A stretch of 64,000 nt of DNA from Erythrobacter sp. HL-111. GTDB lineage: Bacteria > Pseudomonadota > Alphaproteobacteria > Sphingomonadales > Sphingomonadaceae. The position numbers were made by a program, and so were the translations under genes. The notes beneath the pieces are model-generated. The model ran no database searches. It had not been told where the DNA came from and was given only the letters and a program-made list of their open reading frames with translations. The stretch covers positions 1,612,001 to 1,676,000 of the forward strand of contig NZ_LT629743.1 of NCBI RefSeq assembly GCF_900105095.1. The letters are read 5' to 3'. How positions within the stretch are numbered: the stretch's first letter is position 1; the number at the start of each line of letters is the position of its first letter. Positions 34,221-39,908 of the stretch are shown here, piece after piece.

Positions 34221-35785
34221 ACGCCGAAACGCCGATTGCCCCGACAAACCCCGCCGGTCGCGGGATCGATCCCGCGATGGCCGGACGCTATGCCGGCAGG
34301 AAGGCCTGCGTCATCGGCTCGGGATTCGGCGGCATGGCCCTTGCCCTGCGGCTCCAGTCGCACGGCATCGCGACCACCGTGGTCGAGGCGCGCGACAAGC
34401 CCGGCGGGCGCGCCTATTTCTGGGAAAAGGACGGTTTTACCTTCGATGCCGGGCCAACCGTCATCACCGACCCGCCCTGCCTCGAGGAGCTCTGGCAGCT
34501 GACCGGCCACGACATCGCCGAGGATGTCGAGCTGATGAAGGTCATGCCCTTCTATCGCCTCAACTGGCCCGACGGTACGAATTTCGACTATTCGAACGAC
34601 GAGGACAGCCTCAACGCCGAGATCGCCAAGCTAGAACCCGAAGACGTGGTGGGCTATGCGCGCTTCCTCGAATATTCGCAGCGCGTCTACGAGGAAGGCT
34701 ATCTCAAGCTCGGGACCGTGCCCTTCCTCGATTTCAAGACCATGCTGAAAGCCGCCCCGGCGCTGGTGCGCGAACAGGCCTGGCGCAGCATCTATTCGAT
34801 GGTGTCGAGCTACATCAGGAACGACAAGCTGCGCGAAGCCTTCAGCTTCCATTCGCTGCTGGTCGGCGGCAATCCGATGAAGACCTCGAGCATCTACGCG
34901 CTGATCCACAAGCTCGAAAAGGACGGCGGCGTGTGGTGGGCGCGCGGCGGCACGAACCGCCTGATCGCCGGGATGGTGCGCCATTTCGAACGGCTCGGCG
35001 GGACGATGCGCGTCGGCGATCCGGTGGTGCAGGTCCACACCATGGGCACGCGCGCGACCGAGGTCGAAACGAAATCGGGCTGGAAACAGCGTTTCGACGC
35101 CGTCGCTTCCAATGCCGACATCATGCATTCCTACAAGGACCTGCTGTCGGGTTCGCAGCGCGGGCAGAAGATGGCGAAGTCGCTCGGCCGCAAGAGCTTT
35201 TCGCCCAGCCTGTTCGTGGTCCATTTCGGGCTGAAGGGCACGTGGCCGGGCATCGCGCACCACATGATCCTGTTCGCCAACCGCTACAAGGGCCTGCTCG
35301 ACGACATCTATTCGAACGGCGTGTTGCCGGAGGATTTCGCGATCTACCTGCACCACCCGACCGTCACCGATCCCTCAATGGCGCCTGCGGGCATGAGCAC
35401 CTTCTACGCGCTCGTCCCCGTCGCCCACATGGGCAAGATGCCGGTCGACTGGGACGAGGTCGGGCCGAAACTCGAAAAGATGATCCTCGACGAGCTCGAA
35501 CGCCGCCTGATCCCCGACATCCACGAACGGATCGTGACCAAGTTCAGCTACGCGCCCAAGGATTTCGCGACCGACCTTTCCGCCCACATGGGCAGCGCCT
35601 TCAGCCTCGAACCCGTGCTGTGGCAGAGCGCCTACCTGCGCGGCCACAACCGCGACGACGTGATCGGGAACTTCTACCTGGTCGGCGCGGGCACCCACCC
35701 GGGCGCGGGCATTCCGGGCGTGGTGGGGAGCGCGAAGGCCACTGCCGGGCTGATGCTGGAGGACCTGGCGCGGGTGGACGCGTGA
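34217..35785 (+). CDS. crtI: Phytoene desaturase (lycopene-forming)
   Basis: A 522-residue FAD enzyme of the CrtI family that introduces four double bonds into phytoene to give lycopene. FAD-binding motif VIGSGFGGMALALRLQSHGI, then ARDKPGGRAYFWEKDGFTFD and the C-terminal VGAGTHPGAGIPGVVGSAKA signature. The start overlaps the crtY stop. Immediately after the stop begins a palindromic repeat and the DUF559 cassette that separates it from LOG and crtB, so expression of the downstream genes may depend on readthrough. Confidence 0.97.
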   Translation: MNAETPIAPTNPAGRGIDPAMAGRYAGRKACVIGSGFGGMALALRLQSHGIATTVVEARDKPGGRAYFWEKDGFTFDAGPTVITDPPCLEELWQLTGHDIAEDVELMKVMPFYRLNWPDGTNFDYSNDEDSLNAEIAKLEPEDVVGYARFLEYSQRVYEEGYLKLGTVPFLDFKTMLKAAPALVREQAWRSIYSMVSSYIRNDKLREAFSFHSLLVGGNPMKTSSIYALIHKLEKDGGVWWARGGTNRLIAGMVRHFERLGGTMRVGDPVVQVHTMGTRATEVETKSGWKQRFDAVASNADIMHSYKDLLSGSQRGQKMAKSLGRKSFSPSLFVVHFGLKGTWPGIAHHMILFANRYKGLLDDIYSNGVLPEDFAIYLHHPTVTDPSMAPAGMSTFYALVPVAHMGKMPVDWDEVGPKLEKMILDELERRLIPDIHERIVTKFSYAPKDFATDLSAHMGSAFSLEPVLWQSAYLRGHNRDDVIGNFYLVGAGTHPGAGIPGVVGSAKATAGLMLEDLARVDA

Positions 35786-35836
35786 TCCTCCCCGACACGG
35801 GGAGGGGGACCATGCGCAGCATGGTGGAGGGGCACC
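35785..35836. repeat. Palindromic repeat, left arm of the DUF559 cassette
   Basis: About 52 bases: hairpin CCTCCCCG/CGGGGAGG, then a second hairpin CCAT-GCGCAGC-ATGG, then GGAGGGGCACC. The inverse of this sequence, with a few changes, stands at 36204-36257. Confidence 0.85.
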
Positions 35837-35892
35837 CCGCGTGATTACCGGCCCGCGCGACACGGTGAAGCGCGCGCAAGCTGCGGAGCGAG

Positions 35893-36261
35893 ATGTCGCT
35901 GCCGGAAACCCTGCTCTGGCGTGAGCTTCGAAAGCGACCGGGCGGATACAAATTCCGTCGCCAGCATCCGGCAGGAGAATTCGTGCTGGACTTCTACTGC
36001 ACGAGGGCGCGGCTCGACATCGAGATCGACGGCTGGGTACACGAAAGCACCCAGAGGGCCGAGCGCGACGGTCAGCGCTCGGCATTCCTTCGTTCGCAGG
36101 GGATCGCGACAACGCGTATTCCGGCCAAAAGGGTGCTTGAAGATTTGGACGCGGTCATTACGCGGCTGGTCGTGATTTGCGATGAACGGATTGACAAGGT
36201 GATGATGCCCCTCCACCAGCCTGCGGCTGGCCCCCCTCCCCGTTCCGGGGAGGAATCATGA
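35893..36261 (+). CDS. DUF559 endonuclease-domain protein
   Basis: A 122-residue protein of DUF559, a Vsr/PD-(D/E)XK-type nuclease-like family: MSLPETLLWRELRKRPGGYK, FRRQHPAGEFVLDFYC and IEIDGWVHE give the catalytic-type residues Asp33, Glu44 and Asp46. The usual preceding ARKLRSE is encoded in frame just upstream of the ATG but without a standard start before a stop at 35866, so the N-terminus may be slightly cut or start on a rare codon. The last about 18 codons run into the right palindromic repeat, and the stop overlaps the LOG start. Sits between crtI and LOG in the carotenoid cluster. Function is unproven; see findings. Confidence 0.85.
   Translation: MSLPETLLWRELRKRPGGYKFRRQHPAGEFVLDFYCTRARLDIEIDGWVHESTQRAERDGQRSAFLRSQGIATTRIPAKRVLEDLDAVITRLVVICDERIDKVMMPLHQPAAGPPPRSGEES
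36204..36257. repeat. Palindromic repeat, right arm of the DUF559 cassette (inverted)
   Basis: Inverted, near-identical copy of 35785-35836: hairpin CCAGC-CTGCG-GCTGG, then CCTCCCCG/CGGGGAGG. Its outer end GGGGAGGAATC is the ribosome site of the LOG gene at 36258. Confidence 0.85.
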
Positions 36262-36839
36262 AACGTCTTGCCGTCTATTGCGGCTCCGCCAGTCCGGCCG
36301 ATCCTCGCTATATCGAGCTGGCCGAAGATGTCGGCGCCGCGCTTGCCCAGCGCGGGATCGGCGTGGTCTATGGCGGCGGCAGGCTCGGCCTGATGGGCGC
36401 GGTCGCCAAGGGCGCGAAGGCGGCCGGCGGCGAGGTCATCGGGATCATCCCCGAAAGCCTCGTGCGCGCCGAGGTCGCGAATCACGACTGCGACGAGCTG
36501 ATCGCGGTCTCCGGGATGCACGAGCGCAAGCAGAAGTTCACCGACCTCTCCGACGGTTTCGTGACCCTGCCCGGCGGGGTCGGCACGATGGACGAATTGT
36601 GGGAGGCGATGAGCTGGGCGCAGCTCGGATACCATTCGGACCCGGTCGGGCTCCTCAACGCCTACGGTTTCTTCGACCATCTCATCGCCTTCAACGCGCA
36701 CATGGCAGCGGTCGGTTTCGTGCGGCCCGCGCACCAGAACATCCTGATCCACGCCACGCGCCTGCCCGACCTGCTCGACAGGATGCAGGCCTATGTTCCC
36801 CACACCCCGATCTTCCGCATGAAGGCCGAGGACCTCTAA
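36258..36839 (+). CDS. LOG family (cytokinin riboside 5'-monophosphate phosphoribohydrolase-like) protein
   Basis: A 193-residue Rossmann-fold protein of the TIGR00730/LOG family. The signature PGGVGTMDELWE lies at 105-116 and the partner arginine in GMHERKQKF at about 90; the N-terminal YCGSASPADPRYIELA and YGGGRLGLMG also match. LOG enzymes hydrolyse nucleoside 5'-monophosphates to free base and ribose phosphate; the best known substrates are cytokinin precursors, but bacterial ones act on AMP and others. It lies between crtI and crtB with a ribosome site supplied by the palindromic repeat. Confidence 0.93.
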   Translation: MKRLAVYCGSASPADPRYIELAEDVGAALAQRGIGVVYGGGRLGLMGAVAKGAKAAGGEVIGIIPESLVRAEVANHDCDELIAVSGMHERKQKFTDLSDGFVTLPGGVGTMDELWEAMSWAQLGYHSDPVGLLNAYGFFDHLIAFNAHMAAVGFVRPAHQNILIHATRLPDLLDRMQAYVPHTPIFRMKAEDL

Positions 36840-39812: not shown

Positions 39813-39908
39813 CTCCCCTCCCCTTGGGGAGGGGTCGGGGGTGGGGGTTCGACATCCGCGGGCGTGGTACACCCATCCCCCAACCCCTTCCCTCAAGGGA
39901 AGGGGAGC
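39813..39908. repeat. Paired inverted palindromic repeats between carboxylase genes
   Basis: Left arm 39813-39847 holds the hairpin CCCCTCCCC/GGGGAGGGG; right arm 39872-39908 holds CCCCTTCCCT/AGGGAAGGGG. The arms are inverted near-copies of each other, with a 24-base spacer. The right end AAGGGGAGCTT forms the ribosome site of the beta-subunit gene. Confidence 0.85.

Follow-up and report, generated by a model that had tools for sequence, protein, structure and literature searches.

The 64,000-nt stretch of Erythrobacter sp. HL-111 analysed here (assembly GCF_900105095.1, contig NZ_LT629743.1, positions 1,612,001 to 1,676,000; hereafter the window, in whose coordinates features are given) carries an insert of 472 nt (35786-36257) between a crtI-like and a LOG-type gene, composed of a 49-nt palindromic repeat, a DUF559 gene and an inverted copy of the repeat. 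This repeat type is referred to as R1. The two arms (left, 35786-35834, + strand; right, 36206-36254, - strand) are 86% complementary, and both copies were predicted to fold into two hairpins as single-stranded DNA (z, -2.94 and -3.98; 0 of 200 shuffles folding as well). In the left copy, hairpin 1 (35787-35805) and hairpin 2 (35809-35825) are followed by a G-rich tail, GGAGGGG (35826-35832), which is the mirror of the 3′ arm of hairpin 1; in the right copy, hairpin 2 lies at 36216-36230 and hairpin 1 at 36235-36253. An Rfam search of the repeats gave nothing at gathering score. A reading of the letters alone (the sequence-only reading) had described a DUF559 gene enclosed by inverted two-hairpin repeats inside a carotenoid cluster; the domain match (PF04480, E 9e-21), the complementarity of the arms and the folds bear out the first part, and the neighbours found by domain search, which include a lycopene cyclase and a phytoene synthase besides the crtI-like and LOG-type genes, the second.

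Upstream, the stop codon (TGA, 35783-35785) of the crtI-like phytoene desaturase gene (34247..35785, + strand, with 34247 as an in-frame coordinate and not an assigned start; Pfam Amino_oxidase, 3e-40) abuts the left repeat. The DUF559 nuclease open reading frame (Vsr-like, PD-(D/E)XK/EDxHD-type; 122 aa) was read from an internal ATG (35893..36261, + strand). In alignment with three relatives (G001, G031 and G014), the gene of the window lacks 2 nt of a GC run near 35870, so that the usual start, GTG at 35841, and the former 5′ end of the gene (35841..35892, + strand) are now out of frame. One TGA lies within the domain match, and only an internal start such as the ATG at 35893 reads the DUF559 domain, most of which is covered. 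The conserved D, E-x-D-G and H residues are kept in the alignment, and the N-terminal helix lies outside the frame. By structure comparison the fold of a homologue (L223) is closest to 3hrl, followed by I-Bth0305I and Vsr; both sequence family and fold place the protein among the DUF559/Vsr-like nucleases. The stop of the DUF559 frame overlaps the start of the LOG-type gene (36258..36839, + strand; Lysine_decarbox domain match), and the right repeat encodes the C-terminus of DUF559, as the sequence-only reading held. Its further proposal of a ribosome site within this copy is compatible with the sequence: the repeat arm ends at 36254, 3 nt ahead of the LOG ATG at 36258, and GGAGG at 36249-36253 can act as a putative Shine-Dalgarno sequence. 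The GGAGGGG tail of the left copy would likewise provide a ribosome site before the DUF559 start.

The frequency of this layout at DUF559 loci was determined using an inverted flank score of at least 40 as the definition of an inverted flank pair. The best 80 of 540 relatives of the R1-clade alignment were taken as named loci, so that this set leans to Sphingomonadales, and 2 were too short to score (n = 78). A pair was found at 60 of the 78 named loci and in a single one of 286 windows offset by 1.4 or 2.1 kb (Fisher, 4e-51), which agrees with the earlier expectation that DUF559 genes of relatives are framed in the same way. Among 63 loci of 6 kb or more, the window centred on DUF559 exceeded every other window in 59, and 6 of 1382 other windows reached a score of 40. 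Genus and phylum samples, drawn by Pfam profile, gave pairs at 31 of 42 loci (0 of 75 shifted windows) and at 23 of 35 loci (1 of 68 shifted windows), respectively. Taxa with a pair included two Planctomycetes, a Burkholderiales genome, Ramlibacter and Caulobacter. Among six records from a plasmid collection, a pair was present in Sphingomonas, Sinorhizobium pSymB and Deinococcus, and none was present in Azospirillum, Synechocystis and E. coli. The DUF559 unit of the Sphingomonas parapaucimobilis plasmid (L246) lies between NAD(P) transhydrogenase subunit genes, again within an operon.

The type of repeat follows the clade of the enzyme. Protein identity and flank-repeat similarity were correlated in the genus sample (Mantel r 0.84, 0 of 2000 permutations), over all 114 loci (r 0.62, 0 of 500) and in the named loci (r 0.46, 0 of 1000); at least five named loci (L164, L165, L166, L223 and L230) are the same places as genus loci, leaving some duplicates across sets, and 1 identical protein of 158 was dropped from the Mantel and co-resident sets. 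In genomes with several DUF559 genes, the repeat at a locus was closer to that of the nearest protein relative than to that of the co-resident gene in 40 of 42 comparisons at an identity of at least 60%, in 23 of 23 at 65% or more and in 44 of 51 at 55% or more, pairs at least 99.5% identical being omitted.

Occupied and empty sites were read in relatives. At crtI-LOG, examined in 53 of 59 genomes with a LOG match, 7 genomes held the DUF559 unit, 21 were empty, 23 held other inserts, one held a single R1 copy, and in one the two genes were not adjacent; the empty junction anticipated by the sequence-only reading thus exists. Full units at this site are 472-480 nt long, and in 16 of the 21 empty relatives the crtI stop and the LOG start overlap by 4 nt (RTGA). 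The lone R1 copy (G010, L032:1178-1498) is followed by a Barstar-family gene where DUF559 would be, and 19 of the 23 other inserts are 403-454 nt, marking a site of variable content. At a second site, read in the best 30 of 55 genomes, G031 and G014 hold a unit of the same clade between acyl-CoA dehydrogenase and PhnA-like genes; these genes overlap or abut in G001 and five others, and the remaining 22 of 30 differ in spacing or neighbour. As the unit is present at crtI-LOG in G001 and absent there in G031, occupancy is reciprocal. The combination of occupied and empty alleles that characterises a homing endonuclease gene was found at both sites.

Repeats also occur without the gene, as solo copies and as inverted dimers, a point on which the sequence-only reading had asked only that it be looked for. 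The R1 pattern matched in 24 of 61 genus genomes (0 matches for the reversed control pattern), and all 11 close R1 pairs among these are tail to tail, as are the copies on either side of DUF559. In trmD, read in 32 of 59 genomes (the 30 best matches plus G024 and G014), R1-type dimers lie in frame at one point in 6 genomes and 20 have no insert; the dimer of G025 folds with z -7.65. G001 has at this point a dimer of the L001-type DUF559 repeat (triplex type), and five genomes have other palindromes of two unrelated kinds, one in G030, G011 and G054 and the other in G033 and G026, which makes this point of trmD an in-frame insertion hot spot. In G012, outside the trmD set, an R1 match lies about 100 nt before the trmD match. 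Of 61 genomes, 18 have the L054-type repeat, and in several of these the corresponding DUF559 clade is absent.

Repeat number was compared with enzyme presence, the R1 carriers (n = 13) and the flank copies to be subtracted being assigned by hand and G030 (variant repeat) and G012 (no pair) left out. Extra R1 copies averaged 5.2 in the 13 carriers (11 with any) as against 0.5 in 48 others (11 with any; Fisher, 8e-5). The genomes with trmD dimers comprised 5 carriers and 1 non-carrier, as against 5 carriers among 26 dimer-free genomes (p 0.006). For BoxC-like motifs, the pattern is nearly mirror-symmetric and its reversed control matched almost as often as the pattern itself, some matches being G/A microsatellites, and the comparison was therefore made between genomes with and without DUF559: at least three motifs were present in 10 of 14 phylum genomes with DUF559 and in 5 of 46 without (n = 60; p 3e-5). 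The genome of the window, G080 and G071 have DUF559 and no BoxC-like motif.

Across clades the flank repeats share a common plan, namely a C-rich arm, a loop, a G-rich arm and then a G-rich tail, reached either directly or after a second hairpin. With hairpins picked blind to the tail and T allowed opposite A, the tail mirrored the G-rich arm in 84 of 99 hairpins, 40 of them exactly, where shuffled tails gave an expectation of 16.6-17.5 and about 2 exact; a same-direction copy was found in 31 of 99, and 15 of 114 loci had no purine hairpin. On the letters, such a mirror purine tail is the signature of the BoxC/PIT intrastrand triplex motifs. BoxC and PIT repeats have been known since the 1990s. 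The stem of R1 covaries, with 30/30 and 29/30 pairs maintained against expectations of 15.2 and 13.8. R1 starts with (AA)TCCTCCCC; no GTAG foot was seen by eye in the copies inspected, and GTAG occurs in some loops of hairpin 2. The third strand of R1 in the window starts about 20 nt past the hairpin, across the second hairpin, and so lies outside the published loop rule of 1-6 nt (PMC4666352), whereas in several other clades 2-4 nt precede the third strand. In the accessible text of the same paper, published in 2015, a G/C-rich motif is reported in more than 260 genomes, with 23 copies in MG1655, the E. coli motif is equated with BoxC and PIT elements, and, within that text, the authors state that they never came upon mobility-providing activities near the E. 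coli sites.

E. coli K-12 C3026 has a BoxC-type motif in the interval between fabI and the DUF559 gene ycjD. Four E. coli strains lacking ycjD have efflux genes in the gap and no clean empty site. At pstB-pstA (L257, L259-L261) a BoxC copy is present or absent according to strain, the difference of 92 nt being bounded by an 8-nt direct repeat, AACCGTGT; with such a repeat, an insertion with duplication would leave the same trace as a deletion by slippage.

The window comes from a single-contig genome of 3.19 Mb, which its nearest named relatives place in the Erythrobacter/Porphyrobacter/Qipengyuania group. In this genome, the R1 pattern with at most 3 mismatches occurs three times, twice as the copies of the window, and a looser-gap pattern adds one copy at 881200. 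A solo R1 copy at 931861 adjoins a repeat of a second type, about 4.4 kb away from the second DUF559 gene. This genome has four DUF559 genes, of which the two other accessory ones have palindromic repeats of two other families alongside. The fourth precedes a SufC-like gene (translation read by eye) and has no flank pair, and weaker-scoring matches similar to it recur in most genomes of the genus sample. For this SufC-type paralogue, flank pairs were found at 0 of 6 distinct loci (maximum score, 24), and the E-x-D-G-H residues are absent from both aligned copies (n = 2); it is probably a domesticated, non-catalytic form, to judge from these copies.

These observations were set against known systems. 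In the accessible portions of PMC3733652 and PMC3116915, REP/REPIN-RAYT (TnpAREP) systems are described as an enzyme gene within inverted palindromic repeats, with solo repeats, inverted dimers and repeat-specific enzyme pairs. The DUF559 units share the inverted palindromic flanks, the solo copies and inverted dimers, and the pairing of repeat with enzyme. They differ in that DUF559 is a PD-(D/E)XK/Vsr-like nuclease and not an HUH tyrosine transposase, in that the repeats have a G-rich mirror third strand and no GTAG tag, and in that the carriers have no RAYT match. The resemblance to RAYT elements proposed by the sequence-only reading accordingly stands for layout and population structure, fails for the enzyme, and is an analogy that holds far more widely than the window. 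Most flank hairpins (84 of 99) share with the BoxC/PIT/TM-ECO motifs a C-rich and a G-rich arm followed by a purine third strand in mirror order; in the accessible text of PMC4666352 these motifs are described as having no mobility genes associated with them; R1 differs further in having a second hairpin instead of a short second loop. From the EDxHD/Vsr-like homing endonucleases (I-Bth0305I) and from DUF559 in inteins, the gene differs in being free-standing, at less than 500 bp and with its own terminal palindromes, and in having repeat-only derivatives and several unrelated sites. By the features tested, the element behaves like a REPIN/RAYT system with an enzyme akin to homing endonuclease genes and appears to be a member of neither. 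Rickettsia palindromic elements are palindromic repeats found in frame inside protein genes, and are not known to have an assigned mobility gene. The R1 dimers in trmD are likewise in frame, but in 5 of the 6 genomes with these dimers the cognate nuclease gene is present.

The crtI-LOG insert is probably a small REPIN/RAYT-like mobile palindromic element served by a homing-type DUF559 nuclease, the movement itself being one that DUF559 would catalyse. Full units, such as those of 472-480 nt at crtI-LOG, would be the autonomous form, and tail-to-tail dimers and solo repeats would be derivatives that are non-autonomous or have decayed, standing to the full unit as REPINs stand to RAYT genes. While the DNA is transiently single-stranded, for instance at a replication fork, DUF559 would recognise the folded form of its family's repeat and would nick or cut either at the end of the repeat or at a target still unoccupied, after which host repair would copy the element into the break. 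Insertions would survive at stop/start overlaps and in tolerant loops such as that of TrmD; those at RTGA overlaps may be tolerated because the repeat ends give the next gene a Shine-Dalgarno-like GGAGG. As this enzyme family is found paired with such repeats in many bacteria, the enzyme may spread repeats whose spread had previously been unexplained. A broader reading, offered tentatively and with slightly more doubt than belief, is that DUF559 proteins are the missing mobility enzymes of intrastrand-triplex repeats (BoxC/PIT/TM and two-hairpin variants), the two together forming a transposase-free mobile class, a homing-type PD-(D/E)XK nuclease gene with terminal triplex-forming palindromes and repeat-only derivatives in several phyla, of which YcjD/BoxC of E. 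coli would be a member accessible in the laboratory.

Several results weigh against a DUF559-driven element. Inverted pairs of at least 40 were missing from 18 of the 78 named loci, from 11 of 42 in the genus sample and from 12 of 35 in the phylum sample, and none was seen in Nitrospira, Chloroflexi, Anaerolineae, Niastella, a Bacteroidota genome and some of the alphaproteobacteria. The best pairs at the two other accessory DUF559 genes of the genome are direct (68 and 178), and their inverted scores reach only 36 and 38. No inverted pair is present in the E. coli record with a BoxC copy downstream of ycjD (score, 18). In the phylum sample the Mantel r was only 0.25 (4 of 2000 permutations), a weak co-diversification, and part of the correlation between repeat and enzyme arises because flanks travel with the gene by linkage. 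R1 copies are held by the 11 of 48 non-carriers noted above, and G092, G109 and G114 carry 23-45 BoxC-like motifs with 0 DUF559, so that standing copies need no resident enzyme; these genome-level tests, moreover, take no account of shared ancestry. The sites themselves are permissive: crtI-LOG takes other inserts in 23 genomes and is generally tolerant, and trmD is not enzyme-specific, as 6 genomes have other palindromes there, which in 5 belong to two unrelated families. No target duplication was established, and selection for stop and start codons can account for the RTGA on either side. The DUF559 gene of the window is frameshifted; its nuclease is probably impaired at the N-terminus, and the gene may be decaying.

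Some of the same results would suit a different account, in which the repeats spread by other means (replication slippage, recombination or an unknown host nuclease) and DUF559 is cargo moved by homologous recombination between repeats. Genomes with repeats and without DUF559, the site (L032) that pairs a repeat with a barstar-like gene and the 23 of 53 crtI-LOG junctions with other inserts are what it would lead one to expect, but the same enzyme family would then have to be the recurring cargo across taxa with different repeats, repeat type would have to follow enzyme clade, extra copies would have to be about ten-fold more numerous in carrier genomes, and DUF559-free windows of the same loci would have to be paired as rarely as was observed (6/1382); the account is considered unlikely. 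Improbable, too, is a guardian function, by which DUF559 as a Vsr-like repair or structure-specific nuclease would restrain or trim hairpin/triplex repeats and not spread them. The proximity of the fold to 3hrl, I-Bth0305I and Vsr speaks for it, as do, in the accessible parts of the sources, the requirement of Caulobacter VsrA (a DUF559 protein) for the DNA-damage response upon methylase loss (PMC12907096) and the instability linked to triplex motifs (PMC4666352); a housekeeping gene, however, would be expected at one locus, whereas the units occupy different sites that are empty in relatives and have clade-specific terminal repeats.

Movement of the repeats by a RAYT or another known transposase, with DUF559 incidental, would account for a layout like that of REPtrons, and RAYT-family genes were indeed found in G007, G013 and G084 among the 16 genomes searched; but PF01797 matched in 0 of 13 R1 carriers (two of them only 72% and 89% complete) and the copies inspected have no GTAG foot, so that RAYT was rejected as the mover, the RAYT part of this explanation is largely refuted and the whole is very improbable. 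It is hardly credible that the repeats serve the carotenoid operon as hairpins for transcription or RNA stability and are inverted around DUF559 by coincidence: the hairpins are strong and a repeat end gives LOG its Shine-Dalgarno-like sequence, but there is no Rfam match at gathering score, 21 genomes lack repeats at the junction, and the same unit is also found elsewhere, including on plasmids. A defence-system module was also considered and rejected, the best PADLOC matches being 3.8e-6 and 3.6e-4 (part of DpdF) and 8e-4 (Type II REase).

DUF559 is listed in Pfam as a domain of unknown function. In the literature search no paper was recognised as linking DUF559 with palindromic repeats, most subscription papers lying outside its coverage, so that absence of such a link is unproven. 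The association provides a candidate enzyme for the BoxC/PIT triplex repeats together with a testable role for DUF559, and carries the REPIN/RAYT principle, in which one cognate enzyme serves a population of repeats, over to a nuclease of unrelated fold; with ycjD and BoxC both present, E. coli K-12 makes that role accessible to testing. Apart from the insert, a further palindrome, CCCCTCCCCTTGGGGAGGGG, lies downstream of the carotenoid cluster at 39815-39834 of the window and resembles another repeat family of the same general type.

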